A stretch of DNA of 53,705 nucleotides from positions 1 through 53,705 of IMG/VR virus record IMGVR_UViG_3300009154_000070. One strand, 5' to 3'. Numbering within the stretch: the stretch's first letter is position 1; every line of letters begins with the position of its first letter. The position numbers and the translations under genes were made by a program. Shown here one piece after another: positions 1,056-53,705 of the stretch. Source of the DNA: a virus. The notes beneath the pieces are model-generated. The model was not told the DNA's origin. It searched no databases and worked only from the letters and a program-made list of their open reading frames with translations.

Positions 1056-1898
1056 TTAAATATTTGATTGTTTAAGAATTCCTTTTTCTTTACTAAAACA
1101 ATGAAGTGAAACTATATGCATTGCAAGATATCCAGGTTTAACGCCCCTCCAGGTCTTATTATCAAGACTTTTTAATTTTTCCAGTAACCACATTAGTTTT
1201 CGACAAGCGAGGTAAATATCATCCCTAAAATGCCTTATACAGTCACAAGATCTAATAAAATAAACTATATGAAGTCTGTCTCCTCTTCGCATAAAGTGAT
1301 ATCCAATAGTGCAGGGAACTCTTTCGTTATGGGTAGTTCCGGTATCCTCTGGAAACCAGATTGGGAGAAAGGCTTGCCTGGTGAAAGGTTCTCTGTGCAT
1401 TAAATCGACAACGTCCTTAAAATCGCCATACTTAAATCTAACACCGCCTAATGGATATTTGGGTATAAATAAATTGTTTGGGTCTTTTTTGAATTCCTCT
1501 ATATCCTCAATCTTTGTTTCTTTGTAATAATCAGATCCCGCATACTTTGGCCATATCCTTTCAGGGTAAGTGTGAGAAAATCTACTGTGTCCTCCGAATT
1601 GTGAATTACTCTTTTGAGCAAATGGCCAGTTTACATGGGAGGGTGGAGGGTTGTAGGGTTTACCGCTAACCCTTTCATCAAAGTGTTCGTCTGCCCAAGG
1701 TAGATTTGGGCGTACCTCTGTTACTAGTTCTTCTATTGTTTCAGGTATAAAGAATTGAAAAGAGTGATTCATTATTTCCCACATATCATCTGGTGATTCT
1801 ATACCCTGCCACTTTTCAGTCTTTACAATATAACCATGATCTAAGAGTTTTTCTTTTGTCCATTTTATAGCTTCACTCGGTTTAGAAAAGGTTTTCAT
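1056..1898 (-). CDS. Thymidylate synthase-family enzyme, predicted dCMP-directed (dCMP hydroxymethylase-like)
   Basis: 280 residues, close to the size of ThyA and T4 gp42. The catalytic region is clear: RQAFLPIWFPED matches the R-x-x-Q/A-F strand, VPCTIGYHF carries the nucleophilic cysteine (Cys196), and RSCD (216-219) binds phosphate. The Cys-to-Arg spacing of 20 residues is the same as C146-R166 in E. coli ThyA. Counting on, the position of E. coli Asn177, which reads the uracil face of dUMP, is Asp227 here. Asp at this site is the hallmark of dCMP hydroxymethylases (Asp179 in T4) and is known to shift TS specificity towards dCMP. The likely product is therefore 5-hydroxymethyl-dCMP or another 5-substituted dCMP, rather than dTMP. 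The family call is firm; substrate specificity is inferred from one residue. The N-terminal 60 residues are divergent. Confidence 0.8.
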   Translation of the reverse strand: MKTFSKPSEAIKWTKEKLLDHGYIVKTEKWQGIESPDDMWEIMNHSFQFFIPETIEELVTEVRPNLPWADEHFDERVSGKPYNPPPSHVNWPFAQKSNSQFGGHSRFSHTYPERIWPKYAGSDYYKETKIEDIEEFKKDPNNLFIPKYPLGGVRFKYGDFKDVVDLMHREPFTRQAFLPIWFPEDTGTTHNERVPCTIGYHFMRRGDRLHIVYFIRSCDCIRHFRDDIYLACRKLMWLLEKLKSLDNKTWRGVKPGYLAMHIVSLHCFSKEKGILKQSNI

Positions 1899-3130: not shown

Positions 3131-3133
3131 GTG

Positions 3134-3573
3134 TGGATCTGGAGGGATTCGAACCCTCGTCTCCATCAGTTAATTAATTGAATTCATTCACAGGCTTAGC
3201 ACTGTTTGTGCTGGAAAGATCCCAAACACATTCTGCACCGTAGGTTTGTACTAGAGGTATGAGGGGCTACGTAAATACGTGTCAGCCAAACAATCTCTTG
3301 CACCGTAATGGGACCTTTCGGCCACTCCACCATCACATTTTGAGAAAACGCGAAAAACAGGTTTGCAACTTTCTGTTCCTGGGCAGTTACCGCACCGTTG
3401 GACTAGGCAGCTATCGCTTGCTTAGTTGTTACAGGAGCACCAAATTTATTGATGGCTTCCCATACGTTGGCTTTTTTGCCGTTTAGATTTTGTATAGAGG
3501 ATTAAAGAGTTTCCGATACTAACTCTGCCTGCATTCAAAGAACTACGCCTGCGGATCAATTCCAGTCAGACCC
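3134..3573 (-). ncRNA. ssrA: Transfer-messenger RNA (tmRNA), phage-encoded
   Basis: About 440 nt before CCA addition. The 5' end GGGUCUG pairs with the 3' end CAGAUCC over 7 bp and contains the G3-U70 wobble that specifies alanine charging, with discriminator A at 3134. A D-loop-like ACUGGAAUUGAU follows, and the T-arm is GAGGG-UUCGAAU-CCCUC. The long P2 helix is visible: UUGAAUGCAGGC (3527-3538) pairs with GCCUGU (3190-3195) plus AUUCAA (3178-3183). The reading frame at 3403-3480 starts most likely at GGC, begins GKKANVWEAI, ends TTKQAIAA and stops at UAG. The AIAA end fits the usual ALAA-type degron, though 25 residues is long for a tag. CCA is not encoded (ACAC follows). It rescues stalled ribosomes and marks their products for proteolysis. 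The resume codon is the least certain part. Confidence 0.9.
3403..3480 (-). other. tmRNA tag-peptide reading frame
   Basis: Inside the tmRNA, a 25-codon frame begins GKKANVWEAI, continues through NKFGAPV and ends TTKQAIAA, then UAG at 3403-3405. The hydrophobic Ala-Ile-Ala-Ala terminus is what ClpXP-type proteases read. The start at GGC is inferred from the A-rich sequence before it and the Gly-initiated tags of Bacteroidetes. An AAC or CUA start one or two codons upstream cannot be excluded. Confidence 0.7.
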
Positions 3574-6061: not shown

Positions 6062-7522
6062 TTATTTTGAAAAGTAAATTCCTGCGTGTTCTTTCCCCTT
6101 AGCGCTTTTTGGACTATAGTCATCTTCAGGTAAATCTGTAACAACAAAGGCTTTGTTTGGATTAACGATCATCCCTAGAGTTCTCATTAATATACGATTA
6201 GCTAAGAATGGTGTACTTTTACCAGTTCTGTCTATAGGAGAAACCCTAACAGCTGGAATTTTAACATCGTTAAAAACTATATCCATTTCTATAACTGGTC
6301 TTCTATCTCTACTCTGTCCAACCTCTGCATCTGAATATCCTATAATATCGCTAGAGAACTTCTTGTCTCCGCAAGTCCAAATTAATTTCTTACCTTTTTC
6401 CTCCACACTGTCAGCATGAATGCTACAAGAGGTAGATCCATTTCCGGTATCAAATTTTGCTACCACCTTTCCAATACCAGGAACTTCTAGCATTTCAAGA
6501 TATCCAGCTTCTATAGTAGAAAAGCTCCAGTTTTCAGAATCTGTAATATAATCTAAAACGTCATTAACGATTGGTTTACCAATTGCTTTAGAAATACCTT
6601 CTGTCCCAGGTGAAGAGTTAACCTCAAGAATATAAGGCTCTTTTGTTTTCTTGTCAATCATGATATCAACACCACACCAGTGACACCCAACTGCATTGGA
6701 AGCTCTGCAAGCTATATCTCTAATTTTATCGTCAATCTCAAACTTGGTAACTTGACCACCTAGAGAGTAGTTTGTTCTGAAGTCTTTTTTAACTGCAGAT
6801 CTTTTCATAGAACCAAGTATAATGCAGTTGTCTTTAGCTGGAGTGATTGGATCAAATTTCTTAACTATAACCTGGATTCTCAAATCAAAATTAGAATCAA
6901 TCTTTTCTTGAATTAGAATCTCACTAGATTCGTCCAGTTTTCTGATGGTCTGATAAACTGATTTATATGAAGCATATGAATCAACAATAGAAACCCCAAT
7001 ACCTTGGGTACCGGACAAAAGCTTCATAACTATGGGGAAATTACCTCCAATTTCTTCAAGAGCGCTATCCAATGCATCTTCATTAGGAACTAAGGCATAT
7101 TTAGGAACTGGTAGTCCTGCACTAGCTAGAACGTGTGAAGTAACAAACTTATTTTCGCAAATTTCGATAGATTCCAAGCTGTTTATTGTGAAATATCTAG
7201 ATTCCTCCAGTTCTGTCATAATTTGCTTTGTATAAGAATTAGAGATTACCCCTCTTCTTGGGACTATCACGGTATTGGTTGGGTCGATTGATACATTTTC
7301 TTTTTCTGACTTTAAAACGTGCCCGTTGTACACTTTCTCAAGGATCACATTGTTTATATCGACAGTATGACACTCTAGTCCTCTCTTTTTACAAACCTTC
7401 TCAAATGACTTCGATGTTTTGCTACCTGCTGAATTACCCGTTAAAACTACCACTTTTATTTTCTTTTCTGTAGAGGCTTCGTTTAAAAACCCCCAGAAAT
7501 CTAGTACATTTTCAACGCTCAT
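6062..7522 (-). CDS. RimK-type ATP-grasp ligase fused to a RimB-like retropepsin-fold domain
   Basis: 486 residues. Residues 20-335 form an ATP-grasp amino-acid ligase: GGNFPIVMKLLSGTQGIGVS binds ATP, EILIQEKIDSNFDLRIQV follows, and PYILEVNSSPGTEGI carries the Mg-binding Glu/Asn. RimK adds glutamates to ribosomal protein S6. Residues 345-475 match the RimB/ATP-dependent zinc protease family, with the retropepsin-type AKFDTGNGSTSCSIHADS and later RRPVIEMD and FLANRILMRTLGM. These are usually separate proteins. The N-terminus (VLDFWGFLNEASTEKK) precedes the catalytic fold and resembles the targeting-like motif of other proteins here. Plausibly it modifies the host ribosome or another protein tail and trims it. 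The substrate is unknown. Confidence 0.8.
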   Translation of the reverse strand: MSVENVLDFWGFLNEASTEKKIKVVVLTGNSAGSKTSKSFEKVCKKRGLECHTVDINNVILEKVYNGHVLKSEKENVSIDPTNTVIVPRRGVISNSYTKQIMTELEESRYFTINSLESIEICENKFVTSHVLASAGLPVPKYALVPNEDALDSALEEIGGNFPIVMKLLSGTQGIGVSIVDSYASYKSVYQTIRKLDESSEILIQEKIDSNFDLRIQVIVKKFDPITPAKDNCIILGSMKRSAVKKDFRTNYSLGGQVTKFEIDDKIRDIACRASNAVGCHWCGVDIMIDKKTKEPYILEVNSSPGTEGISKAIGKPIVNDVLDYITDSENWSFSTIEAGYLEMLEVPGIGKVVAKFDTGNGSTSCSIHADSVEEKGKKLIWTCGDKKFSSDIIGYSDAEVGQSRDRRPVIEMDIVFNDVKIPAVRVSPIDRTGKSTPFLANRILMRTLGMIVNPNKAFVVTDLPEDDYSPKSAKGKEHAGIYFSK

Positions 7523-7805: not shown

Positions 7806-7986
7806 CGCTTTCGGATTTTTTCACATCTTCCCAAATTTCATCAAGATATCTATGCGATTCTGAAGGTCCTGTCAGGACTTCGGATTTACCAACGATAAAT
7901 TTAATAAAATCTTTAGGGGTTTCAAATTTTTCTCTTATTTTCTTAAGCTCTTCCAGCTCAGGAAGGTGTCTTCTGTTAAATCCCAT
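7786..7986 (-). CDS. Small hypothetical protein
   Basis: 66 residues, charged and helical (LPELEELKKIREKFETPKDF). Its ATG overlaps the TAA stop of the DNA polymerase C-terminal half as TAATG, implying translational coupling with the polymerase. No recognised family; possibly a polymerase-associated small protein by position alone. Confidence 0.55.
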   Translation of the reverse strand: MGFNRRHLPELEELKKIREKFETPKDFIKFIVGKSEVLTGPSESHRYLDEIWEDVKKSESDEGCNR

Positions 7987-9134
7987 TAAAATAGTGCGTT
8001 TATCATGAATAAATTTGGACTAATTGGATTATATCCCATAACCTCAATGAATCTATTTATGGGATCCAAGATTGTTTTAGTAAACTGCTCATCATAATCG
8101 ATAGGAGGTGCATATTCATACGGAAACGTTCCTTGTGCATAGGCGAAAACGTTATTATCAGCAGCAGATTTAATCTTAACAAAATAATAGTTTACCTTTT
8201 CGCTACTCCTTATCAAAGCATATTTATCTTTATACTTAGAATTATTAAGAAGGTAATTGTGATAAGCAGAGGCTCTAACATGGATAGGACAAGCTTTGGC
8301 AACCTCTAGAGCTGTTGTGTCATTTAGGATAAACTTCTCATAGTTGTTAACATTAACAGAAGCTGAGATGTTTCTGGGCTCTTGTATCTTAAACTCCTTC
8401 TTTATTTCCTTTAGCTCCTTTACAAATTCCCTTATGTTAAATTTCTTACCTTTCGAGAAAATAAACTTTGTTAGGTATTCGAGCTTTTGTCTTACGAATG
8501 GAGGAGTTCCACCTTTAATCATTTCAACACCCACAATCTTCATTCGATCTAAGGGATCAATATGAACACCATCCTCATAGACCAGATTTGACACGTACTT
8601 CTTTTTACCTAAGAATATGCCATTAAGTGCAATATTCTCAAGTTCAAAATCCATATAGTTGTCTGTGTTCCATTTCTTGGAGTAGATGTCAAAGCAGTTC
8701 TTTAAATATGACTTAAGTCTATATTCATTGATCTTAAGAATTAAATCTTTAGGGTCACCTGTCCAATCGCATGAAGTTACAACCTCTTGAAACGTGACAT
8801 AGTTAGAATCAGTGTCACCGTATACAGTAAGGGGTCTAACAACTTTTTTAACAGAGGTGATCCCGAGCTTTTCATGAAGTTCTGTATCTACATGCCAGAA
8901 CTCGTTAAAATATTTGAAAATAATCTTCTCAGAATATTTAATCAAATCCTGACCCTGCAGAGTAACAGCCTCAGCTACATCAGTATTGAAACAAACGAAC
9001 CAGTTATTACCAATCGCTCCATATATAGAGTTCATTGTTAATTTGACCGCTTGCTCTTCATTCTTCAACTCATTTTTTAATGAGATCAGAGATTCTATTT
9101 TCTCCTTTATTTCCTTTATTTCGGATTCTGTCAT
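7986..9134 (-). CDS. DNA polymerase family B, C-terminal half (motifs B and C)
   Basis: 382 residues from the ATG at 9132-9134. An in-frame TTG at 9149 would add five residues, but overlaps the clamp gene. The N-terminus is a charged helix, followed at once by polymerase motif B (KLTMNSIYGAIGN) and then motif C (YGDTDSNYV) with its catalytic aspartates. A thumb-like C-terminus follows. Motif A and the exonuclease are absent and are found in the protein at 32946-34346. The cut falls within the fingers helices between motifs A and B, so both parts must assemble for activity. It follows the clamp gene by 4 bases. The T4-like relative RM378 of Rhodothermus also has a divided polymerase. Confidence 0.88.
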   Translation of the reverse strand: MTESEIKEIKEKIESLISLKNELKNEEQAVKLTMNSIYGAIGNNWFVCFNTDVAEAVTLQGQDLIKYSEKIIFKYFNEFWHVDTELHEKLGITSVKKVVRPLTVYGDTDSNYVTFQEVVTSCDWTGDPKDLILKINEYRLKSYLKNCFDIYSKKWNTDNYMDFELENIALNGIFLGKKKYVSNLVYEDGVHIDPLDRMKIVGVEMIKGGTPPFVRQKLEYLTKFIFSKGKKFNIREFVKELKEIKKEFKIQEPRNISASVNVNNYEKFILNDTTALEVAKACPIHVRASAYHNYLLNNSKYKDKYALIRSSEKVNYYFVKIKSAADNNVFAYAQGTFPYEYAPPIDYDEQFTKTILDPINRFIEVMGYNPISPNLFMINALF

Positions 9135-9138
9135 ATTG

Positions 9139-9906
9139 TTATTTTTCAACTAAGCCGATTGCAATGGAAGTAGACGATTGATCTGAGATTAGAACTAATC
9201 TATTTCCGTGAATAAAAACCTGACATGTTTCTGCTTCCATATAGGAAAGCTGATTCTTGTAGATATTAGAGGTTGCTTCTTCAGCATCTTTGATTGAGAT
9301 TTCAGAAGGACTAAGATTTAATTTATATCTGAAAGAATCCCCTTTTGCATGTGCACTCTTGGTGTTAACCTCAAAAACTAGAATTTCCTCTGAGTTTGTT
9401 TCCAATCCGCACAATGAAAGAACTGTTGTGAAATCCGATTGATAGATTTTAAAGTTGGATAATGCATCATCCTTGCTGTGAACCATTGAGAGAATTTTAT
9501 CATCAACATAGGAAAGCAAAGAAAGATCTGCGCATCTCAACTTGATGTTAAGTGAAGCTGAGGTAAGCTTAATCTCTGTTGAAATTGATTGATCATCTAC
9601 TGTGTCCACATTTAATTCAATGTAAACATCTTCCTCTGGTCTAAAGTGTTTAAAAGCTTCGATCAAACGGGTAATGTCTATTATACCAACTTTAACTCTA
9701 TTGTCGACATATTTGGTCCAGTCAGCTTCTCCTTCCAAAACATCAGATAAAGAAACGCTAGAGTATTTCATAACGGCTTTATCTGGTGTGTGAACCTTAC
9801 TGAATAGCTTATCCTTGGTTAGCTCTAAGATAACACTTTTGTCAACTGACTTTAATCTTTTAAGAAATGTGATTAAATTCTGAATGCTTGTAATTCTTAA
9901 TTTCAT
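9139..9906 (-). CDS. Sliding-clamp candidate (gp45/PCNA-like)
   Basis: 255 residues, somewhat longer than T4 gp45. Sequence identity to known clamps is weak by eye, but the alternating beta pattern, the acidic character, the segment VKVGIIDITRLIEAFKHF (like the gp45 IYDLNGFLGILSLV region) and the position directly before the polymerase half all fit a processivity clamp. Its product would ring DNA and tether the split polymerase. Alternative: another beta-rich DNA-binding protein. Structure prediction would settle it. Confidence 0.6.
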   Translation of the reverse strand: MKLRITSIQNLITFLKRLKSVDKSVILELTKDKLFSKVHTPDKAVMKYSSVSLSDVLEGEADWTKYVDNRVKVGIIDITRLIEAFKHFRPEEDVYIELNVDTVDDQSISTEIKLTSASLNIKLRCADLSLLSYVDDKILSMVHSKDDALSNFKIYQSDFTTVLSLCGLETNSEEILVFEVNTKSAHAKGDSFRYKLNLSPSEISIKDAEEATSNIYKNQLSYMEAETCQVFIHGNRLVLISDQSSTSIAIGLVEK

Positions 9907-9945: not shown

Positions 9946-11349
9946 TTAAATTTCATCTTCCTCAGTCTCTTCCGAAATTATTTCCTCTTCTTCCTCAATT
10001 TGAAAAATTTCGATTCCGTTCATTTGACTAGGCTCGAAAAGATTAGCTGACATTTTATTGACTTTAATCTTACCACTTTTTTCTATGATCTTAGCTACTT
10101 CCTTGTGTATTTTTTCCTGCTCTTTTATTTTCTTTTTAACCTCTGCTATTTTAGCCTTTATTTCCTTTATATCAATCTCAGTTTGCTTGATGTGATCTGA
10201 ATTAAGTTTAACTATTTCTATCTTCTGAAGTCTTACTGAAATCCAATTTTCAAATTGAGCAACAAACTCTACAATCTCATTATTTGTTCTCTTTTTAGCT
10301 ATCATGAAATTCAAAAATTTAAGCTTTGCTTCTAGAAAAGCAAGTTCTCTTGAATAGTCTTCAGAGTCTCTTACTAGTCTTCTTAGTTTAACAAATTCTA
10401 GTTGTCCTTTGAAATTGTCCAGATATTCTTTAACTGATGAGAATTCTACCACTCCTCCGTCTTTAACAAACACGACGTCTTCCTTAACTATAATTTTACA
10501 TAGCTTAGAAACCTGATTTACAATTTCCTGAAATCTAGTTTGATCAACCCCTCTGATTGCAACAATCAAATCACATTTACTTTGAGATCTGTTTTCTATC
10601 CTGTATTCAACCCCTGTGCTTTCTAATCGGAGATCTAGCTTATTAATAAAACTATCATATCTCATAACAGGAGGTAAATCATAAATGTGAATTGTCTTCT
10701 TTGTTGTGTCCACCTCGAATCCACTTTCTATAAGCCACGTGCTATCCTCATTTTGGAATCTTGTTATCTTACCGGAAAAATCCTTAAAATATGGTTTAAG
10801 AAGTTTAGAAGATCCGTCTAAATATTCCTGGATGTCCTCAAATTTACGAGGAAGTATATTACTTCTATATCCAACCGCAATTCCAATCACATGGGTTAAT
10901 AAACCTATTGGAACTTCTACATGAAGCCAATCATATCCACCCTCCTCGTTCTTCTCATTAAGATCATAGTTTTTAAAAATGAGATCTTTAACTTTATTGT
11001 TTATTTTAACAGAGGTATATCTGGGAGCAGATGGATTTGGATTTACTGGAGAACCGAAGAATCCATCTCCTTCTAATATTCCGTATGAGCAGCCAAAAGG
11101 TCTAGCCAATTTGGAAATGGCACCGGACAAAGAGGCATCACCGTGATGATATAGTCCAGTCTTAATTACTTCACCAACTACCCCAATTGTTTTATTAAAC
11201 TTCGATGGTGAATTTTGAAGTATTAACCTTTGGACCGGGGTTAAAGCGTCATAAAAATTTGGAATTCCTCTCCCTTGGAGAACATATATCGCATATGAAC
11301 GATATTGACTATTGATCTGATCTGAGATCCCTAAAGACTTTGAAGCCAT
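9946..11349 (-). CDS. Type II DNA topoisomerase, DNA-cleaving subunit (gp52-like)
   Basis: 467 residues, near T4 gp52 in length. It begins as GyrA/ParC-type subunits do (YAIYVLQGRGIPNFYDALTPVQRLIL), and the catalytic tyrosine lies in APRYTSVKI. GLYHHGDASLSGAISKLARPF is the conserved WHD region. Residues 330-430 are a long Lys/Glu coiled coil, and the C-terminus is strongly acidic. With the ATPase subunit at 14309-16099 it forms the heteromeric enzyme that relaxes or decatenates replicating phage DNA. Co-oriented with the clamp and polymerase genes. Confidence 0.92.
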   Translation of the reverse strand: MASKSLGISDQINSQYRSYAIYVLQGRGIPNFYDALTPVQRLILQNSPSKFNKTIGVVGEVIKTGLYHHGDASLSGAISKLARPFGCSYGILEGDGFFGSPVNPNPSAPRYTSVKINNKVKDLIFKNYDLNEKNEEGGYDWLHVEVPIGLLTHVIGIAVGYRSNILPRKFEDIQEYLDGSSKLLKPYFKDFSGKITRFQNEDSTWLIESGFEVDTTKKTIHIYDLPPVMRYDSFINKLDLRLESTGVEYRIENRSQSKCDLIVAIRGVDQTRFQEIVNQVSKLCKIIVKEDVVFVKDGGVVEFSSVKEYLDNFKGQLEFVKLRRLVRDSEDYSRELAFLEAKLKFLNFMIAKKRTNNEIVEFVAQFENWISVRLQKIEIVKLNSDHIKQTEIDIKEIKAKIAEVKKKIKEQEKIHKEVAKIIEKSGKIKVNKMSANLFEPSQMNGIEIFQIEEEEEIISEETEEDEI

Positions 11350-26291: not shown

Positions 26292-27551
26292 TTATCTTTT
26301 TCCATTATATATCGCTGGATTCTGAGCTTTTTTGGCTTGCTCCACTTGTTTAGCTTTCTCTTTAGCTGCAGCTTGATAGAATTCTAGGTTCTTTTTAAGC
26401 CTATCCCTTTCAAAATCTGGAATACCGTTGAAAAATTCAGATTTAACGATGGCAGTAGTTTTTTCTAAAGCAATCTCTGGGTTTCCAATATAATGTGCAG
26501 CCAATGAGTACTCATCAAGAAGTCTCCATTGCCAGATCTCAGGTTCAACGAAAAGAATATCTGATGTTCCTCTAGTTTTAATAGCTACGTCTCCATAGGC
26601 AAAAGCGATCAAGAATCTTTTCTGTTCTCTTAACTTTCTCATAACGTGGAATGCACACTCCAATCTCGATGGTCTGTATTCCCATGCCTTTGAGTAAAGA
26701 TTAACAACCTCATCGATTGGATAGTTTAATCTCTCCTTTATTTTAGCCTCCATGTACATCGAATAGTAGACTTCTTCTTCCCAGCCACCCATCTCAGCTC
26801 TTTTAACATAAGCTTCTATCGACTTCTCATATTGCTCAGAATCTCTATAACTTTGAGCTAGATAGAAAACGTATCTGGCATTATCGGGTTCTTTTTCTAA
26901 AGCCTCTTCTAGAATTTTAGCGTCATTAGAGTATTTCTCTTGAAGACTCGATGCTCTCTTAAGAGGCGAGATGTCCGCAATAACGTGAGAATGCGGAATT
27001 GTGCCCTGGATTAGGTTTTGCTTATCTGTATGTAGATATTCATGAAGAACCCCTTTATAACACCAATCAACATCAGATCTAACTACCTGAACACGATGGT
27101 ATTGAAGAGCCCCTAATCTGTACATGATCTGGTAAGCATCTGGGGTCTTATCCAAACCAGCAAAAGGATTTCTTCCTGGCATTTCTGCAATGAAAGTGTC
27201 ATCGGCATCTATAATCCATCTGTAATCACATTTACCCTTAGCCAACTCAAGACTCTCTGTTCTGTTAACTTCGAAATTTACCCATGGACGCTCGTGAAGT
27301 TCACCAGGAATTCCAAGTTTTTCCATTGTTGAATTAATAACCTCTTTGGTCTTATCCTTAGATCCGGTGTCGACAATTACCCAATATGAAATATACGGAG
27401 CAACTGCTGAAAGACATTTTTCGATAGTGTCCTCCTCATCCTTAACTATCATAACCAAGCAAAGCTCAATTGTTTGCTTCAATTCCTGCATCTTTACAAT
27501 AGGCTTAGGAATACCCATTGGGATAGATTTCTTTTGATTCTTTTTGCTCAT
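26292..27551 (-). CDS. Family 2 glycosyltransferase with TPR-like C-terminus
   Basis: 419 residues. Residues 30-230 are a GT-A catalytic domain: LCLVMIVKDEEDTIEKCL, VIVDTGSKDKTKEVI and IIDADDTF with the D-x-D metal site. Residues 235-400 form helical repeats of TPR type (DNARYVFYLAQSYRDSEQYE, then AFAYGDVAIKT). This architecture matches bacterial glycosyltransferases of the SunS/WcaA-like set, which modify proteins or surface glycans. It might decorate virion proteins, modified DNA bases or the host envelope. The acceptor is unknown. Confidence 0.88.
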   Translation of the reverse strand: MSKKNQKKSIPMGIPKPIVKMQELKQTIELCLVMIVKDEEDTIEKCLSAVAPYISYWVIVDTGSKDKTKEVINSTMEKLGIPGELHERPWVNFEVNRTESLELAKGKCDYRWIIDADDTFIAEMPGRNPFAGLDKTPDAYQIMYRLGALQYHRVQVVRSDVDWCYKGVLHEYLHTDKQNLIQGTIPHSHVIADISPLKRASSLQEKYSNDAKILEEALEKEPDNARYVFYLAQSYRDSEQYEKSIEAYVKRAEMGGWEEEVYYSMYMEAKIKERLNYPIDEVVNLYSKAWEYRPSRLECAFHVMRKLREQKRFLIAFAYGDVAIKTRGTSDILFVEPEIWQWRLLDEYSLAAHYIGNPEIALEKTTAIVKSEFFNGIPDFERDRLKKNLEFYQAAAKEKAKQVEQAKKAQNPAIYNGKR

Positions 27552-28224: not shown

Positions 28225-28839
28225 TTAAGATTTCTTTAATCCAAGTTTTTTAACAACAGCAGCTAGAACTTCATCTTTACCGCTCTCTGCCTCTACCTTA
28301 ACCAACTTTCTGCACTTTTCATAGAAGTCAACTAGAGGTAAAGTTTTCTCCTCATATTCTTTGAATCTTTGATTTACTATCTCGTCACTAGAATCATCTT
28401 TTCTGTTCTCCTCTTTAGCTCTAGCCTTAATTCTATCCTTTGCTATCTCATTTGGCAGATCCAGATAAAAAGCATGATTCAGACCCAATCCCATTCTGCC
28501 TAACATTGTGTCTAATCTTCTAGCTTGTTTAATTGTTCTTGGAAATCCGTCGAGAATAATTCCTTTAGAAACGTCTAGAGATTTAAGTTCTTTTCTAAGT
28601 ATTTTAACCATCATATCGTCAGGAATTAAATTCCCACCTTCGATAATTTTCTTTAATTCCGGATCGTCGGAGTTTCTGATAATATCACCCGTTGAGATGT
28701 GTGAAAATCCGTAGGTCTTTTTTAATTCTTTCGATAAAGTTCCCTTACCTGAACCAGGAGCTCCAAGGACGATCATTATTTCACCCTGATCCGAAGATTC
28801 GTTAATTTCAAATTCTGAAAGCTTTTTAATCTTTGCCAT
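28225..28839 (-). CDS. adk: Adenylate kinase with an N-terminal targeting-like extension
   Basis: 204 residues. Catalytic core: IVLGAPGSGKGTLSKEL (P-loop), FSHISTGDIIR (AMP site), GIILDGFPRTIKQA, YLDLPNEIAKDRIKAR, and VNQRFKEYEEKTLPLVDFY. The LID is short and lacks the zinc cysteines. It converts AMP and ATP to ADP, supplying the reductase encoded just downstream. Unusually, about 20 extra residues (MAKIKKLSEFEINESSDQGE) precede the usual start and look like the capsid-targeting leader of other proteins here. Confidence 0.93.
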   Translation of the reverse strand: MAKIKKLSEFEINESSDQGEIMIVLGAPGSGKGTLSKELKKTYGFSHISTGDIIRNSDDPELKKIIEGGNLIPDDMMVKILRKELKSLDVSKGIILDGFPRTIKQARRLDTMLGRMGLGLNHAFYLDLPNEIAKDRIKARAKEENRKDDSSDEIVNQRFKEYEEKTLPLVDFYEKCRKLVKVEAESGKDEVLAAVVKKLGLKKS

Positions 28840-28853
28840 TTTTAGTATTTTAT

Positions 28854-31343
28854 TTATGAGCTACATAGTACACAATCATCTGGATTATCTAGACTACACA
28901 TTATGCCTGAAGCAACCTCTTCCGCAGCTTTACTTAACTCCTCACTGGTCATTCCTTCCAATTCTACCTTTGCCTCACTTACTGGTGTAATTTCTTTCTT
29001 TTCCTCAGAAAGTCTAAGTGCCTTTTTTGTTTTCTCCATATCTATCCCTAGACCTGCCATAGCATCTACAGCAGATTTAGTTCTCAAGTAGTACATGCCT
29101 GTTTTAAGTCCAAGCTCCCATGCATAGAAGTGCGCAGATGTCAATTTAGCTGAATTCACTCCCTCAATGAATAAATTTAGTGATTGCGATTGGCAAATAA
29201 ATTTACCTCTATCGGCTGACATTTCAATTATATCCTTCTGTTTAATCTCCCAAACTGTTTTGTAGACTTCTCTGATATTTTCTGGAATTTGTGGAATCTT
29301 TTGAACTGATCCTTTATGAAGTATAATTAAATTCTTAATATCCTCATTCCAAAGACCCAGAGAGATAAGATCAGCAACCAAGTGTTTGTTTATCAATATA
29401 AATTCCCCACTAAGTGTTCTTCTTGTGTAGAGATTTGAAGTAAATGGTTCAAAAGCCTCATTGTTGCCCATGATCTGAGCTGTTGATGCTGTTGGCATTG
29501 GAGCAAGAAGTAGTGAATTTCTAACACCGTTCTTCATAACATCTTTTCTTAATTTATCCCAGTCCCATCTTCCTGATAATTGATTATCTTCAAATCCCCA
29601 AAGGTTGAATTGGAATTGACCTTGACTTAAAGGTGATCCAGGGAAGGTTTCATATGCTCCATCCCTTTTAGCTAAATCCATTGAAGCAGTCATAGATGCA
29701 AAGTAGATGGTTTCGAAAACATCCTCGTTAACCTTTCTTGCTTCCGGAGAAGTGAATGGAAGACGCATCATTGCAAACAGATCTGCTAAACCTTGAATCC
29801 CTATTCCAATTGGTCTGTGTCTAAAGTTTGATTTTTTAGTTTCTGGTGTTGGATAGTAGTTTACGTCAATTACACGATTTAGATTTATTGCTGTTTGATA
29901 AGCAACATCATAAAGAGACTTATGATCAACTTCACATTTTCCTCTAATTATTTTGGAAGTTCTTGCATCAGTAGATTTCAAAAATTTATTAACAGGAATA
30001 GAGGCTAGATTACATACTGCTTGCTCATCTTTATCTGTGTACTCTAAAATCTCAGTGCACAGATTTGAACTTTTAATTGTTCCTAAATTCTTCTGATTTG
30101 ATTTTCTATTAGCAGCATCTTTGTAAAGCATATAAGGAGTTCCAGTTTCAACCTGTGATTCCAAAATCTTGCTCCAAAGATCTCTTGCTTTTATAACTTT
30201 TCTAGCTTTCCCTGAAGCTTCAAATCCTTCGTATGCTTTCTCGAATTCTTCGCCATACTTTTCCCAAAGACCTTCTGCATCAGACGGTGAGAATAAAGAC
30301 CAATCAGAATCTTCCTTAACTCTTTTCATAAATAAATCAGGAACCCATAAAGCCAAGAAAAGATCTCTGGCTCTTAATTCCTCTTTACCTGTATTCTTTC
30401 TTAAATCTAGGTAATCTTCTATATCAGAATGCCAAGGTTCAAGGTAGATTGCAAAAGATCCTTTTCTCTTTCCCCCGCCTTGATCAACGTATCTTGCAGT
30501 TTCATTGAAGACTTTTAACATAGGAACTATTCCATTAGATGTTCCATTTGTTCCTTTTATATAAGATCCGGTACTTCTAACATTATGAATAGCTAAACCT
30601 ATACCCCCAGCATTCTGTGAAATGGTAGCAACATCAGATAAAGTTTTATAAATTCCTGAAATTGAATCATCAGACATCATTAACAAGAAACAAGAAGATA
30701 ATTGGGGTTTTTTAGTTCCAGCGTTGAATAATGTGGGTGTTGCATGAGTCATCTGATGATTAGATAAAAGCTCATAAGTTTTAATAGCATTTTTTACATC
30801 ATCACCCCAAATTCCCACAGCCACTCTCATATACATGTGTTGTGGGTTCTCCGCTGGTTTACCATTCATTTTTAGAAGATAACTCTTCTCTAATGTTTTG
30901 AACCCAAAGTATTCAAAATTAAAATCTCTCTCATGAATAATAGCACCATCAAATTTTTGCTTGTGCTTTATTACTGAATTATAGGTCTCGTCATTAATCA
31001 AACCTGCTGGTTGATTAGTCTCTGGATCGATATACTCATAAAGATCTTTAATGGTTTCCGAAAATTTCTTCTTATTTGTTTTGTGAAGTCTAGAAACTGC
31101 TATCCTTGAAGCCAGAATGGAATGATCAGGATGTTTAGGAATCAGCGAAGCCGCTGTCTCAGCTGCTAGATTGTCTAGCTCCTCTGTAGTAATCCCATCA
31201 TATATTCCAGCAATAACTTTCTGTGCTATTTCAGTCGAATCAATATAATCTGTATTCAGATCATATGTCATTCTTCTAATTCTATTGGAAATTTTTTCAA
31301 ACTTAACGGGCTCTCTAGAGCCATCTCTCTTTACTACTTGCAT
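28854..31343 (-). CDS. nrdA: Ribonucleoside-diphosphate reductase, large subunit (class Ia)
   Basis: 829 residues. An N-terminal ATP-cone ([20 protein letters not shown]) gives allosteric control. The barrel contains [16 protein letters not shown], the radical-transfer pair in MYYLRTKSA and the C-terminal redox cysteines in DDCVLCSS. It reduces NDPs to dNDPs using the tyrosyl radical of NrdB (31382-32371). Complete, without intein or split. Followed by adenylate kinase. Confidence 0.97.
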
Positions 31344-31381
31344 TTTACCTTATGGTTATTTTTAAAATTTATTTTTGATTC

Positions 31382-32371
31382 TTAGAAATCCTCATCCATT
31401 ACGAACCCGTCATTATGATTCGAGTTCATAACTCCAGATTTCTGGTAGTCTGGGTTTCTTTTTTCGAAGAAATTAACTTTTCCTTGTAGAGCAATATTGA
31501 CCATGAAGTCAAAAGGATTTTCTGAATTGTAAACCTTAGAGCATCCCAAATCAACTAGAAGTCTATCGGCAACAAATTCAAGATATTGTTTCATTAGATC
31601 TGAATTCATACCTATCAATTTAACAGGAAGAGACTCTGTAATAAACTCTTTCTCTATTTCTAAGGCACTCATGATAATCTCCTTGATCTTGTGTTCAGGA
31701 ACTCTGTTAGCCAAGTGGTTGTTATGTAGCATTACAGCAAAATCGCAGTGCATTCCTTCGTCTCTTGAGATCAGCTCATTAGAGAAAGTTAAACCCGGCA
31801 TAAGTCCTCTTTTCTTCAGCCAAAAGATTGAACAGAAAGATCCACTAAAGAATATACCTTCAACTGCAGCAAATGCAATTAGTCTTTCTTGGAAATTTGG
31901 GGAATCTATCCACTTTAATGCCCATTCTGCTTTTTTCTTAACCGCATCGATGGTTTCAATAGCTCTGAAAAGTCTGTCCTTCTCTGCAGGATCCTGAATA
32001 TATGTGTCAATTAGAAGTGAATATGTTTCCGAGTGAATATTCTCCATCATGATCTGAAATCCATAGAAAAATTTAGCTTCTGTGTACTGTACTTCAGATA
32101 CAAAATTCTCTGCTAGATTCTCATTTACAATTCCATCTGAAGCAGCAAAGAAAGCTAGAACATTCTTAACGAAATGTCTTTCGTCGTCATTAAGCTTGTT
32201 TCTCCAGTCATTTAGATCTTGAGCTAGGTCAATCTCTTCTGCTGTCCAAATACAAGCTTCTTGCTGTTTGTACATTTTCCAAATGTCGTGATGCTCTATA
32301 GGAAATATAACAAAACGATTTGGGTTATCTTTTAAAATTGGTTCTGGTAGTGGGTATAAATTTTCTGACAT
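31382..32371 (-). CDS. nrdB: Ribonucleoside-diphosphate reductase, small subunit
   Basis: 329 residues. Di-iron ligands are visible in FFAASDGIV (Asp), [13 protein letters not shown] (Glu, His and the radical Tyr), [10 protein letters not shown] (Glu) and [10 protein letters not shown] (Glu, His). It generates and keeps the tyrosyl radical used by NrdA. C-terminal [12 protein letters not shown] is the usual tail that docks on NrdA. Directly upstream of nrdA in the transcript, 38 bases apart. Confidence 0.97.
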
Positions 32372-32386
32372 TTCGATTTAAAAATT

Positions 32387-32881
32387 TTAGTAGTTATTTT
32401 TTTGACGGTTTCTATTTTCTTCATTCTTGCTCATGTACATATTATACATTTCCTGTGAGGTCATTCCAATTGATGCTGCATAGTTCATAAAGAAATGCAA
32501 CATATCAACAATTTCAAATTTACACTCAATCTTATCAGTCTCAGAAAGATCCGAGAATTTCAAAGAATCGTAGCTGGAGTATGCAGATTTCCATTTCTTC
32601 CAGATAGCATTTCCGTTACCATCTTTGATGCCTCCCAGTGCATCAGTAGCCTCATAGATTTCATCTATTAAAGCGTGCTCGTTCATGTGCCAGAAGTTCA
32701 TAACTTCTCTAAGACTCATGTTCTCGAAGTCGTAACCGTAAACGTTCTTCTGAGTTTCTGCTTGTAGATTAAGAATATCCCCTAGGGTATCAATCTTTTC
32801 ACCTAAAGTCGAAGCTTCTGTAGCATCAGACCAAAGGTCTTCAATCAATAGATTTGCGCAAGAATTGTCTTTGTTTGCCAT
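32387..32881 (-). CDS. All-alpha dUTP/dCTP pyrophosphatase (dUTPase_2/gp56-like)
   Basis: 164 residues. The two metal-binding helices typical of the dimeric dUTPase/MazG superfamily are present: ALIDEIYEATDALGG (ExxE) and CKFEIVDMLHFFMNYA (ExxD), and it ends with the conserved MYMSKNEENRNRQKNNY. It hydrolyses dUTP, and in T4 also dCTP, to the monophosphate. That would feed dCMP/dUMP to the ThyA-like enzyme and, if the latter is a dCMP hydroxymethylase, remove dCTP from the pool. Placed immediately before nrdB. Confidence 0.88.
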   Translation of the reverse strand: MANKDNSCANLLIEDLWSDATEASTLGEKIDTLGDILNLQAETQKNVYGYDFENMSLREVMNFWHMNEHALIDEIYEATDALGGIKDGNGNAIWKKWKSAYSSYDSLKFSDLSETDKIECKFEIVDMLHFFMNYAASIGMTSQEMYNMYMSKNEENRNRQKNNY

Positions 32882-32945: not shown

Positions 32946-34346
32946 TTATTTATTTTCTATACTTCTTTGTAACTGATCTATTTCGATCTGAAGGGCAAGC
33001 ATTCGATCTTTTGTTTTTCTCCTTTTCGAGTAGAGATCCTTGATTATTGTTCTGATAATAGGATTTTCCTCGTCTGATCCAAAATAAGCACCCGAGGCTG
33101 TTCGTGTCCATTCCTCTTTAGGGTTAACCGGATCCTTACCTTTATATGACTCTGGAGAAATGCCCCATTGAACCATGGTATTGGGATAGAGCGAAGCAAA
33201 GTCATAACAAGCAATCCATTCATGAAGTCCGGTTATTGGCTCTTTTACATATCCACCTGCAAATTTAACATGAACCTCATCCTTTTTTTCTTGAACGAAA
33301 ATCTGCTTTCGTTCTAAGAATTTTCTCAACATCATGATCTCTGTTGACCAAACTGGAGAAAGGGATCTATTTATCTCCACACCTGCGATTTGAGCTATCT
33401 TGAAGAAGGTCTGCATGGTTTTGAGCTTTTGATCGATATAGTGAACAAGAGCACAGTCAACTGCGTTATAGTAAATGAAATCTTCAAAATTGGATTGGTA
33501 AAGATCTCTAAGTGTTCCGTTGTATTCTATTTTTTTAAGACCTATAGCTTTATTTGCAACATAATCTAATCGGTTACTTTCTTTGATTTTAATAACTCTG
33601 TCCCATTTTTTATAGATCTCCAGGTAATCGACCATTAGTAGATGCGCGGGTAGCTGTTCCTTTCCTAGAAGATATCCTCCGGGTGAAATGATTTTTGGAT
33701 CTATGCCTAATTTTTTAGCTCTGTTTAGCAAATAAGGCCAGTCATATCCTAACCAGTTCCATCCAGTAATTAAAGGCATTTTAGGACCCAGATCTTTAAA
33801 AAACGTGTAAACTAGATCATACTCAGTTTCGAATTGTTTATATTTAAATGACCACTCATCACCAGTTTTTTCGAAGTATGTGTTGAGCTTCTTGTAGATG
33901 CTTGCTTGCTGTTCAGGGGTCAAAGGGTCTAGTCCTAAAAGGATAAGCTTGCATTTATCTGTTGCAATACCTATAGATAGGATCCTATTCTTTGCATTAG
34001 CAGTATCCAAAGCTGCTGCCATCTCCTCTGTAATCTCAACCTCAATATCGACAAAATATTTTTTAGGTGTTTGGAATTCCCAAAGTGGAGCGGTTAGTTC
34101 TTTTGGGGCTTCCTCTAAAATCTGAGCTATTCTATATTTGTCATATCTTTCAGTTTTCACTTTCTTCACAGGTTCACCCGTCCAAGTTTTCCACTCTCTA
34201 TCTTTAGACGAATTACTGGGGGTGCACTTCTCCCAAACAAATCTTTCTGATTCTGGGATAGGTACTGTTATGAATGCTAGATCTCCGTCTTTGGTGAAAT
34301 GTGAAACTTTTAAAGATTTGCCTTGATTCTCTATGTCTACGATCAT
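32946..34346 (-). CDS. DNA polymerase family B, N-terminal half (exonuclease and motif A)
   Basis: 466 residues. It carries the 3'-5' exonuclease motifs: Exo I KYFVDIEVEI, Exo II GWNWLGYDWPYL and Exo III YYNAVDCALV, then polymerase motif A CYDFASLYPNTMVQWGISP. It ends right after the fingers start (IIKDLYSKRRKTKDRM) with a charged helix, before motif B. Motifs B and C are in the protein at 7986-9134, 24 kb away. There is no trace of the C-terminal part after the stop at 32946, so this is a true split and not a frameshift. Proofreading and palm are thus on a different chain from the other catalytic Asp pair. Confidence 0.93.
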   Translation of the reverse strand: MIVDIENQGKSLKVSHFTKDGDLAFITVPIPESERFVWEKCTPSNSSKDREWKTWTGEPVKKVKTERYDKYRIAQILEEAPKELTAPLWEFQTPKKYFVDIEVEITEEMAAALDTANAKNRILSIGIATDKCKLILLGLDPLTPEQQASIYKKLNTYFEKTGDEWSFKYKQFETEYDLVYTFFKDLGPKMPLITGWNWLGYDWPYLLNRAKKLGIDPKIISPGGYLLGKEQLPAHLLMVDYLEIYKKWDRVIKIKESNRLDYVANKAIGLKKIEYNGTLRDLYQSNFEDFIYYNAVDCALVHYIDQKLKTMQTFFKIAQIAGVEINRSLSPVWSTEIMMLRKFLERKQIFVQEKKDEVHVKFAGGYVKEPITGLHEWIACYDFASLYPNTMVQWGISPESYKGKDPVNPKEEWTRTASGAYFGSDEENPIIRTIIKDLYSKRRKTKDRMLALQIEIDQLQRSIENK

Positions 34347-36003: not shown

Positions 36004-36825
36004 ATGAAAAACACAGAAATCTACAACGAACTAGTGCAGAAAATGAGGGAGTTCTTTCTAGCAAAAGGTTACAAAGAAGTACCAACGCAATCACGTTTAT
36101 CAATCCTGGCGGCATGCGAGAATCCACATTCTATAGCTACCTTCAACTATCAAGGTGAGGTTTGGCCTTTACCCCAAACTGGACAAATGTGGCTAGAGTA
36201 TGAGCTTCTAAAGAATCCGGAATGGCCTGGTGTATTTTGTTTAACAACTTCATACAGACAGGAAAAAAATCCAATTCAAGGAAGACATGACCTAATCTTT
36301 CCTATGTTTGAATTTGAAAGTAAGGGTAATATAATTGATCTGGATAACTTAGAGAGGGAGCTATTAGTTCACTTAGGATTTGATAAACCAAATGCTGTTG
36401 ACTATGAAAGGTTATGCCAGGAGTATGATACGTCTATTCTTGAGGCTGAGCACGAAACTAAAATGTGGAATGAAATTGGATCTGTTGTATCACTACAGAA
36501 TTTTCCAATTAGAACAAATCCATTTTGGAATATGAAACACCTAGCAAATGGGGTATTCAACAAAATAGACGTTATCCTATATGGACAGGAAACCATAGGA
36601 AGTGCAGAACGTAGCTGTGACGTTAATAAAATGAGGGAAATGTTCTACACTATAGAGAATGGAAATTATTGTGCTAAGCTATTCGAATTATTTGGGAAAG
36701 AGAGAGTTGAAAAGGAATTAGAGGAATTTTTATCATTTGAATTCTTCCCTAGATTTGGAGCTGGAATAGGAATGACTAGATTGGAGAGAGCTTATCTACT
36801 TAAAAAAGCTGAGGTAAGCAAATAG
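36004..36825 (+). CDS. Class II aminoacyl-tRNA synthetase-like catalytic domain (AsnRS/asparagine synthetase-like)
   Basis: 273 residues, catalytic core only. Motif 2 is TTSYRQEKNPIQGRHDLIFPMFEFES (Arg-x-Glu followed by His and Phe-Glu) and motif 3 is GAGIGMTRLERAYLL. Between them QETIGSAERSCDV resembles the GGSQRE region of AsnRS/AspRS. No anticodon-binding OB domain, so it is unlikely to charge tRNA in the ordinary way. Size and architecture fit AsnRS-derived asparagine synthetases of archaea, or a modifier of another small molecule or protein. The substrate is not predictable from sequence alone. A short A-rich leader precedes the ATG. Confidence 0.85.
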   Translation: MKNTEIYNELVQKMREFFLAKGYKEVPTQSRLSILAACENPHSIATFNYQGEVWPLPQTGQMWLEYELLKNPEWPGVFCLTTSYRQEKNPIQGRHDLIFPMFEFESKGNIIDLDNLERELLVHLGFDKPNAVDYERLCQEYDTSILEAEHETKMWNEIGSVVSLQNFPIRTNPFWNMKHLANGVFNKIDVILYGQETIGSAERSCDVNKMREMFYTIENGNYCAKLFELFGKERVEKELEEFLSFEFFPRFGAGIGMTRLERAYLLKKAEVSK

Positions 36826-37182
36826 CTTCTTGTCGCGAGTTTGAATTGATAAATCCTTATTAATAAAGATCTCCCAAGAATCCTTCCCATACTGTCCAAT
36901 TCCTGGGAGATCCTTTATATCATCAAATCCTTCTAGCCATTTCCGGCTAAGGTTAATTATCCGGGAGGCTTTTACATTTTGAAATCCGGTTGTTTTTATG
37001 ACCGCTGCCAAGCTTTCTGGGTTACACGTTATAGCTGATTCGGGATTTGGAATAAGTCTAAATACGGAGCTTAAAATCGGCCTTACCTGTTTGTTATTTG
37101 TTTGATTCAGAAGGACACAACAAACCAGCATTTTCCAAGGATCGTCTAAATACTCCTCTTGTATAAGAATTTCTCTTTTCAA
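36796..37182 (-). CDS. MBD4-like HhH-GPD DNA glycosylase
   Basis: 128 residues. DPWKMLVCCVLLNQTNNKQV matches the MBD4/MED1 opening (DPWKLLIATIFLNRTSG), then GFQNVKASRIINLSRKWL, the helix-hairpin-helix LPGIGQYGKDSWEIFI and, after it, TRDKKLFAYL, where the Asp corresponds to the catalytic Asp of MBD4. It lacks the Fe-S cluster of Nth. MBD4 removes T or U from T:G and U:G mispairs, that is, products of cytosine or methylcytosine deamination. It may protect modified cytosines in this genome. The 3' end overlaps the synthetase gene tail to tail by 30 bases. Confidence 0.85.
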   Translation of the reverse strand: MKREILIQEEYLDDPWKMLVCCVLLNQTNNKQVRPILSSVFRLIPNPESAITCNPESLAAVIKTTGFQNVKASRIINLSRKWLEGFDDIKDLPGIGQYGKDSWEIFINKDLSIQTRDKKLFAYLSFFK

Positions 37183-49823: not shown

Positions 49824-51497
<1,674 letters not shown>

Positions 51498-51541: not shown

Positions 51542-52888
51542 TTATATATTAAAGTTTGCTGCTATTCTAATACCATACTGACTATTTTTCGATTCTAAGC
51601 TTGGCACCATATCGTCGTAGTGGTAATAAACTCTCCATGCTCCATTAGGGTTAGGTTCTTCCCCTCCATTTGTTTCGCTTGAAGTCCAGTAATAATAATA
51701 TGGATTATACGCATCACCAATTGCATCTAGCCTTTTATTAAAAAAATCTTTATGGTCACTTATATAAGTGTGATAAGAAAGAGTTGGCAAAAATGCATCC
51801 GGATATCCTGCAAGGTTTCCATAAGCTCTAGCAGCCCATGCAGCAGTTGCTTCATAGTTAGGATATCCTGATGAGTATGCAATAATAGTATCGGTATTAC
51901 TCTTACCTGCTGTTATGTCATTAGATGTACCCAATTCTATCAAAGGAGCTTCTGGCTGTGTCCAGTCCATATTACCAGCATCGGAAGACCAGCCTAAATC
52001 AACTATTCCATCGGCATGACCATTTTGGAGATTATTTATCGTTATGATAGTACCGCCACCGTAAGACTGTCCAACAAATAGAGGATTATTTTTTTTATAT
52101 CTCACAGCAAACTTACTGTACATGTAGGCTACTTCTTGCGCTGACAATACTCTGTTATACATCATTGCTATAGACATCATTCCGTACATGTAGTTGTGAT
52201 TTTCAAAAACCTCTAGAAAATCACCTATTTTAACTATTTGATCATTTTCAGTGCCGTATAGAGGGGTGGTATCATCATAATTAGATGCCTCTAAAATACC
52301 ATCTATATAAAGACTCCATCCAGCATCTACAGACCAGGTAACGCAAACAAAATACCACGTGCCAGGAAGTATTGGATGATTTTTATCTCTATCTGTTTTA
52401 ACACCTCCTCCTCCGTTATTATTTGCCCATATGTTTGCGCCATCATACCATAGCCTATGTGGGGATCCTGCATTTGTAATAGTACCACTAAGAATGTCTT
52501 GTATGAAAGATTGGCCATAGTTAGGTCCTGAGTTATAACCTATACTATTAAAATTAACCCAAACACATTTGCTATAACTTGTGTTTGGAAACTCGACGCC
52601 AGTAATAGGGGCTGGCCGATCTCCTTCAAATGTTAAAGCCCCAATACTTTTCTTTCCATTGTCCGCGTAACCCCAAGTGTCCATCCCAGCTGAAACGTTA
52701 AAAGCAGTGTTTCTTCCCCGTCCGCTTAAATCATACCACTCATGTGTGGTAATAGAAGAATCAGTCCATGAATAGGGGTTTCCTGCATCAAGGTATAAGA
52801 TTAGCCCATCCGTTATAGGATCTATTTGGTTAGCCCCAACGGTAACTCTGCCAGTAAGATTAGCGCTGCCTGCAATGTTTACACTCAT
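51542..52888 (-). CDS. Tail protein with LamG-like lectin domain
   Basis: 448 residues from ATG 52886-52888, which overlaps the upstream TGA as ATGA. Residues 30-240 match concanavalin-like/LamG folds ([58 protein letters not shown]). The C-terminus ([33 protein letters not shown]) resembles the sugar-binding C-terminal region found in Bacteroidetes surface proteins. A carbohydrate-binding receptor-recognition role is likely. The start at 52918 would overlap the upstream gene. Confidence 0.8.
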
Positions 52889-53705
52889 ATAAGTCTTGCT
52901 CCAATTTTTATTATCCAATCACTGGTACCTGTTACATTCGAATATAATGAAATGCCAGTGCCACCGTTATTTACCACAGTAAAAGAAACTTCAGACGTTC
53001 CTGTTGTTCCTGCTGCATCCGGCGTGGATGTGTCAGTCCACCTTACGTCTCCTGCCGCATTCCAAGCAGCCATCACTGTTCCTGCTCTAAAACTTGACAT
53101 TTCATCATCTATATGATAGTCAAAATAAGCCGCATGATAATTTCCAGAAGATATATCAAAACCTATTAGTAGAGACGGGGAAATAGCAGTATTAACAAGT
53201 GATGTAATAGTATTAATATAATATGTCCCATTAGAATTAACTGCAAATGCAGGATTGCCTTGTATTTGGCCAACAGAGAGGATATTCCCATTAGTCCCTG
53301 TATCTCCAGTTAATGTAAACACAGTTCCAGAAGCTCCAATCACATTGACTATATCCCCCGATGTTCCGCCAGCAGCACCAATCTCCAGAAGAGTGCCGTC
53401 AAATGTCATATTGGCCTCTGCATTGGCAGCATTAGTAGTCCCATCGGATGTTAAAATCCGGGTTGCACCTGGATTAGAGATTGTATCAAATCCAGGACCT
53501 TGTGGTCCTGTCTCCCCTGTTGATCCAGTAGCTCCAGTTGATCCTGCAGTTCCGGTAGCTCCTGTAGCTCCTGTAGCTCCAGTTGATCCAGTTGATCCAG
53601 TTGATCCAGTAGCTCCAGTTGATCCAGTTGATCCAGTTGATCCTGTAGCTCCAGTTGATCCAGTTGATCCAGTTGATCCAGTAGCTCCAGTTGATCCTGC
53701 AGTTC
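52885..53705 (-). CDS. Collagen-like tail protein, 5' end missing (right edge)
   Basis: An open frame runs from beyond the right edge to the TGA at 52885-52887, giving at least 273 residues. The first 60 or so visible residues are Gly-X-Y triplets (GST, GAT), then [20 protein letters not shown], and a beta-rich domain starting [16 protein letters not shown]. An internal Met at 53409 has been open to misreading as the start, but the frame continues in phase upstream. It is the first, or an earlier, gene of the fibre operon and is coupled to the LamG-like gene. Confidence 0.85.
53520..53705 (-). repeat. Collagen-like Gly-X-Y repeat tract at the window edge
   Basis: Near-perfect 9-base units (GGATCAACT, GGAGCTACT/ACA) in frame with the partial gene at 52885; several consecutive units are identical. 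Confidence 0.9.

Follow-up and report, generated by a model that had tools for sequence, protein, structure and literature searches.

A phage thymidylate synthase-superfamily protein with a cytosine-type aspartate: a predicted dCMP-modifying enzyme, on balance a 5-hydroxymethylase, in a deep clade apart from T4 gp42

The window analysed here is a 53,705-nucleotide stretch of viral DNA (IMG/VR record IMGVR_UViG_3300009154_000070). Near its first end, an open reading frame of 280 aa with an ATG start runs on the minus strand, the opposite (plus) strand being full of stops. The frame is real and its coordinates are those of the original prediction, which gave no strand. The gene and the codons of its key residues, numbered against E. 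coli ThyA (Ec) and T4 gp42, are the following:

1056..1898, minus: dCMP-type thymidylate synthase (TS) superfamily enzyme, predicted to be a dCMP 5-hydroxymethylase or another dCMP C5-modifying enzyme (ATG open reading frame, phrog_160, TS fold of the AF2 model)
1218..1220, minus: codon of Asp227, at the position of EcAsn177 and T4 Asp179 (alignments; invariant in 46/46)
1242..1253, minus: RSCD motif, Arg216 to Asp219, Asp219 corresponding to EcAsp169 and T4 Asp171 (alignment)
1308..1313, minus: codons of Cys196 (the nucleophile, EcCys146) and Thr197 (EcHis147 position; Thr as in T4 gp42) (alignment; invariant in 46/46)

The encoded protein matches phrog_160 'thymidylate synthase' with E=1.2e-23, while its score against Pfam PF00303 is sub-threshold (E=0.0027, 17.3 bits, cut-off 24.3), and we therefore consider it a remote member of the TS superfamily. 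Specifically, it contains a Cys in a PC motif, an RSxD motif and an SxH motif toward the C-terminus. The AF2 model (mean pLDDT 75.2, pTM 0.76) finds its best matches among TS-superfamily structures (Foldseek E 7.6e-11; VIA-align Z 15.9-17). The top Foldseek match is the CMP 5-hydroxymethylase MilA (PDB 5jnh, 5b6d; E 7.6e-11), and the top VIA-align match is the dCMP hydroxylase 9iqu/9iqc (Z 17.0), with ordinary TS at about 16 and thus tied within 1. Membership of the ThyA family, as initially proposed, holds at the level of the superfamily by both phrog_160 and the fold.

The active site was compared in a MAFFT alignment of the window protein, 46 family members, E. coli ThyA and T4 gp42, the latter two taken from their own genome records. 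In this alignment Cys196 corresponds to EcCys146 and T4 Cys148, Thr197 to EcHis147 and T4 Thr149, Arg216 to EcArg166 and T4 Arg168, Ser217 to EcSer167, Asp219 to EcAsp169, and His266 to EcHis207 and T4 His216. Asp227 falls on EcAsn177 and T4 Asp179, which confirms both the position and the numbering originally given for this residue. With T4 gp42 (PDB 1b49, 6a9a, 6l18) the window protein thus has in common the TS fold and matches to Cys148, Thr149, Arg168, Ser169, Asp171, Asp179 and His216. With canonical ThyA, both that of E. coli and the huge-phage copies, it shares the superfamily, the catalytic Cys, Arg166, Asp169 and His207, whereas the window family has other residues at Asn177, His147, Arg127 and Tyr209 and, as read by MAFFT and hhalign, at Glu58. 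At Asp227, Cys196 and Thr197 all aligned members (46/46), down to about 40% identity, have the same residue, and Asp227 is not there by chance; overall, the Cys, Asp, Arg and His are strictly kept in 46/46. Asp also occupies the 177 site in Muddy, GTE2, Serbin, STP12, Triscuit and DP SC_6, with the Thr197 site reading Ser in one. Muddy gp46, Zuko gp76, Serbin gp50 and GTE2 gp38 (phrog_160) belong to the same family at 37-44% identity, with the same Cys-Thr pair and Asp.

Comparison with MilA bears on base and sugar alike. The HMMER alignment sets Asp227 against the 'SDVF' of MilA, matching the equivalent of Asp186, the cytosine-specific residue that MilA has in common with T4 (PMC5175136). As to the sugar, Ser167 and Arg126 mark the deoxyribose enzymes and Ala/Lys the CMP enzymes (PMC5175136). 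At these selecting positions the window family carries Ser217 (41/46) and Arg174 (46/46), unlike MilA, which has Ala176/Lys133 for ribose; by the MilA rule, a deoxyribonucleotide substrate is therefore predicted.

Other parts of the active site depart from the known enzymes. The EcArg127 position is Gln in all members and the EcTyr209 position is Phe, Trp or His; in T4 numbering, Arg124 is replaced by Gln and Tyr218 by Phe (Phe/Trp/His across members). T4 Asp145, which activates the attacking water, is not kept, its place being taken by Arg193, three residues before the Cys, in 46/46. The position of EcGlu58 (T4 Glu60) reads Asn/Asp at residue 65 by MAFFT and hhalign, in a helix whose alignment is locally ambiguous. 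An equally plausible gapless reading of the helix against RB69ORF048c sets acidic residue 70 at the Glu60 position. This residue is acidic in 43/46 and Glu75 of the same helix is invariant, the AF2 confidence there being moderate, and either of the two could stand in for Glu60. The identity to T4 gp42 in the profile alignment is about 20%, with a long insertion before the core, and the chain ends about 14 residues past His266, without the C-terminal part of about 55 residues present in E. coli ThyA.

Two variants of the gene were observed among the relatives. In two huge phages, L044:6001-7914 (G007) and L320:1151-3046 (G028), the D-type TS (that is, with Asp at the 177 site) is interrupted immediately ahead of the catalytic Cys by an intein of about 370 aa, for which this Cys provides the +1 residue; the two inteins are near-identical in clearly different host proteins, suggesting a recent horizontal transfer. 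In addition, a TS-like paralogue lies directly upstream of the D-type gene at L033:5298-5996, with Thr for the catalytic Cys and Asn at 177, possibly an inactive partner subunit.

The remainder of the window holds several genes of nucleotide metabolism, together with a glycosyltransferase gene:

26292..27551, minus: GT2-family glycosyltransferase with TPR (Pfam)
28225..28839, minus: adenylate-kinase-family nucleotide kinase (Pfam ADK 1.3e-38)
28854..32371, minus: class I ribonucleotide reductase, large and small subunits, a dNDP source adjoining the dCTPase (Pfam)
32387..32881, minus: dCTP/dUTP pyrophosphatase, T4 gp56 homologue (dUTPase_2 / all-alpha NTP-PPase; 32% identity to T4 gp56)
36796..37182, minus: MBD4-type HhH-GPD DNA glycosylase, 128 aa, TTG start predicted (Pfam HhH-GPD 1.3e-9)

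Both accompanying enzymes named in the original prediction are borne out. The dCTP/dUTP pyrophosphatase aligns with T4 gp56 across its whole length (E=9e-25), and its best named phage matches are T4-like dCTP pyrophosphatases. The best PDB matches of the glycosylase are all MBD4 (E=1.1e-15), and its TRDKKL stretch, with the catalytic Asp, aligns with the PEDHKL of MBD4. MBD4 excises T and 5-hydroxymethyluracil paired with G (PMC11201982, citing Hashimoto 2012), and deaminated 5-methylcytosine is its classic repair target (PMC11201982). T and 5-hydroxymethyluracil are the bases to which 5mC and 5hmC deaminate, and such a glycosylase is compatible with modified cytosine without pointing to a particular kind. 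A role for it as a base-transferring hypermodification enzyme was considered and rejected, the matches being specifically to MBD4. The adenylate-kinase-family protein is a possible modified-dNMP kinase; a T4 gp1-like dNMP kinase was not found in 14 relatives, in a search run without a positive control.

The relatives extend this setting. The window is matched from position 11344 to its end, at 99.99% identity, by an overlapping 141-kb IMG/VR contig. Contigs carrying close relatives within the family reach 434 kb, and the window polymerase finds its nearest phage-collection matches in Lak phages and in huge uncultured phages (460-735 kb); we take the window to derive from a very large phage. 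Among 29 large relatives, whose records may be fragments, the D-type TS was found in 27/29, the dCTPase in 27/29 and the MBD4-like glycosylase in 25/29; these are core-gene counts rather than measures of association, the set holding no contrast relatives without these genes. The three look like core genes of the group. A canonical ThyA scores above the Pfam cut-off in 12/14 large contigs and a dCMP deaminase occurs in 11/14. The ten canonical ThyA that were translated (nine full length, one split) carry Asn177, His147, Cys146, Arg127, Tyr209 and Glu58, the last lying on the other piece in the split copy. This copy, in L220 (G009:219800-222500), is in two pieces, possibly broken by an inserted element. 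In Microbacterium phage Triscuit, a D-type and a canonical TS stand back to back. This corresponds to the arrangement in T4, with one enzyme set serving dTMP and another, as predicted, the modified dCMP; like T4, the relatives are such that they combine a gp56-type dCTPase, here encoded in the window, with a separate ThyA in their genomes.

All together, the invariant Asp, the separate Asn177-type ThyA, the T4-type dCTPase, the MBD4-type glycosylase and the published Asp177 association lead us to infer that the enzyme very probably acts on dCMP, not on dUMP, and that virion DNA likely contains a modified cytosine. Concerning the published association, Asp177 belongs to the pair of residues that most clearly distinguish the TS of phages with cytosine-modified DNA from other TS, and these TS co-occur with dCMP deaminase and MazG-like proteins (PMC8670742). 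The proposal that the phage modifies cytosine, perhaps to hmC or a glycosylated form, is thus upheld, by inference, in its first part.

The nature of the added group is a separate matter. The initial statement that the Asp marks dCMP hydroxymethylases stands as far as the cytosine base is concerned and does not establish a hydroxymethylase: RB69ORF048c has this Asp too, and a single Asn-to-Asp change makes ThyA a dCMP methylase (Hardy & Nalivaika, Liu & Santi 1992, cited in PMC8670742), so that it marks the base and not the C5 chemistry. A hydroxymethyl group is nevertheless somewhat favoured, and on the whole we lean towards reading the protein as a dCMP-specific member of the TS superfamily, most likely a dCMP 5-hydroxymethylase, in a deep clade apart from T4 gp42.

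The mechanism that we propose is modelled on T4. In T4 gp42, Asp179 orients the cytosine and protonates its N3, Cys148 attacks C6, methylene-tetrahydrofolate is the one-carbon donor and water finishes the reaction; the D179N replacement abolishes activity and D171 is pterin-linked in the structure (PMC6400193). By analogy, the gp56-like pyrophosphatase would convert dCTP (dUTP) to dCMP (dUMP), keeping ordinary cytosine out of the phage DNA. Cys196 would then attack C6 of dCMP while Asp227 would recognise and protonate the cytosine ring, the activated C5 would take the one-carbon unit from methylene-tetrahydrofolate, and water, not hydride, would end the reaction to give 5-hydroxymethyl-dCMP. 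A kinase would bring the product to the triphosphate for insertion by the phage polymerase, a separate canonical ThyA and dCMP deaminase (both found in relatives but absent from the window fragment) would supply dTMP, and the MBD4-type glycosylase would excise the T-like bases that deamination of modified cytosines leaves behind.

In favour of the hydroxymethylase, besides the evidence for dCMP given above, are the deoxyribose-type Ser217 and Arg174, the Asp219 kept as in folate users, and the short chain after His266. Against it may be set the R127Q change, Phe/Trp/His at Tyr209, Asn/Asp at the Glu58 position and the replacement of Asp145 by Arg193, as well as a clade that is not nested with T4 gp42 and a top VIA-align match to the flavin-dependent dCMP hydroxylase 9iqu/9iqc. 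Specifically, an IQ-TREE analysis resolved the window family (support 100/97), the T4 family (97/93), the RB69 family (100/99) and canonical ThyA as four separate supported groups with long branches between them. A search of the literature found no published nucleoside composition for this phage or for clade members and no member that is solved or functionally tested.

These same data allow a possible, though doubtful, alternative: the clade may be a third, separately diverged dCMP-modifying TS-fold enzyme, with an active site of its own (Gln for Arg127, His for Gly173 and a displaced catalytic acid), possibly its own C5 chemistry, and an undescribed cytosine modification in huge phages and in many small actinobacterial and proteobacterial phages.

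Rather unlikely, in our view, is a 5-hydroxy-dCMP synthase, namely a TS-fold flavin-dependent monooxygenase that places OH straight onto C5 of dCMP, as in the RB69 relatives, in which case the phage DNA would carry 5-hydroxycytosine, perhaps with a sugar. Such a chemistry has a phage precedent, since Mosigvirus DNA is reported to contain arabinosylated 5-hydroxycytosine, made from 5-hydroxy-dCMP by an RB69ORF048c-type enzyme (PMC13390438). RB69ORF048c is near-identical to 9iqc/9iqu (riboflavin-dependent monooxygenase / dCMP hydroxylase; AfhB of phage HY126), and the window protein shares with these the TS fold, the Cys, the Thr, the 177-site Asp and a Phe at EcTyr209; the best VIA-align Z score falls to them too, in the tie with TS described above. 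The window-family profile shows no preference between the RB69 family (E=1e-8) and the T4 family (E=5e-8), the window family being about equally far from both. However, RB69ORF048c has Asn at the EcAsp169 position, where all window-family members have Asp, which favours folate chemistry; moreover, the N-terminal halves are unlike, and in the tree the RB69 type groups with T4 gp42 (88/62), not with the window clade. Short of a dedicated search, no genes of an arabinose pathway came to notice either. A first guess of a flavin enzyme, made from the loss of Glu58, was dropped in view of the ambiguous local helix alignment.

A dCMP methylase, giving 5-methyl-dCMP and 5-methylcytosine DNA as in Xanthomonas phage XP12, seems improbable. 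The window protein ends early and lacks the C-terminal part with which TS shuts its active site during hydride transfer; in addition, Thr197 resembles T4 gp42 and not ThyA. In its favour are the single-residue conversion of ThyA mentioned above and the classic role of MBD4 at deaminated 5-methylcytosine (PMC11201982). Finally, that cytosine in the DNA is not modified at all, the protein being an accessory TS-like dUMP enzyme or a regulatory protein in which the Asp is a coincidence, is hardly likely: databases do label the family thymidylate synthase and the TS active site is altered at several residues (R127Q, Y209F), but the Cys, Asp, Arg and His are strictly retained, the relatives already have a canonical ThyA, and the gene is linked with a T4-type dCTPase.

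Returning to the favoured hydroxymethylase, glycosylation of its product, the second part of the earlier proposal, is without direct support, as nothing in this analysis shows a sugar on the DNA. The T4 alpha-glucosyltransferase family PF11440 was not detected in 14 relatives, some records of which may be fragments (the T4 control was positive). The GT2-family protein with TPR is conserved in all 14 (61-74% identical in 13 other large relatives, 100% in the overlapping contig). Its PDB neighbours are the protein glycosyltransferases GmaR and SunS, and it could be considered a weak candidate for DNA decoration. Carbamoyltransferases acting on 5hmC occur in cytosine-modified phages; a protein of this type (562 aa, PF02543) was found at L318:2043-3731 (G022), and we did not use it as evidence because it is present in one relative only and in an apparent glycan-gene cluster.

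The family extends to cultured phages. A tblastn search recovered it, with matches spanning most of the protein, in about 106 records of cultured phages (130 records at E<1e-3), mostly Gordonia. In Muddy, GTE2, Serbin, Triscuit, Zuko, Strzyga and a Yersinia phage, the D-type gene sits in a cassette with a dNMP kinase, a dUTPase/MazG gene and an additional gene, ORF X, often followed by a dCMP deaminase and then DNA polymerase I. ORF X (phrog_13667 and relatives) is a very divergent second TS-like protein beside the D-type enzyme of small phages, with examples at:

L036:4628-5662
L048:11141-11980
L321:3069-3962
and others

Its motifs are GxC and SRxS, with an Asp that follows the Arg at a distance of 11 residues, and its model, of low confidence (pLDDT 60.7), finds MilA, T4 dCH and thymidylate synthases as top matches. 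In the huge phages, unlike in the small ones, a search for ORF X gave no match (positive controls responded), and the window enzyme therefore presumably works without it.

If the prediction is true, many phages labelled as having an ordinary thymidylate synthase, including mycobacteriophage Muddy and many Gordonia phages, would carry modified cytosine, with consequences for their encounters with restriction, CRISPR and modification-dependent nucleases and for their behaviour in nanopore sequencing. In addition, within the clade the base specificity conferred by Asp177 can be studied apart from the C5 chemistry (hydroxymethyl, hydroxy, methyl), and the prediction is open to direct test by LC-MS in cultured members such as Muddy, GTE2 and Serbin.

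Further genes of the window encode topoisomerase subunits, Hsp70/DnaJ, UvdE and an RNA ligase, besides the ribonucleotide reductase. The family-B DNA polymerase is in two genes about 24 kb apart (32946-34346 and 7986-9149), one with the exonuclease and the N-terminal polymerase part and the other with the C-terminal polymerase part. A phage-encoded tmRNA, missed by ARAGORN, lies at 3131-3573 on the minus strand (Rfam RF00023, 68 bits, E 1.5e-24); its reading frame at 3403-3480 would give the tag GKKANVWEAINKFGAPVTTKQAIAA, with the typical AA end. A RimK-like ATP-grasp ligase with an extra C-terminal region of about 150 residues is encoded at 6062-7522 on the minus strand, and two putative fibre proteins, at 49824-51497 and 52885-53703, contain collagen-like G-x-T repeats (ATGSTGSTG type).
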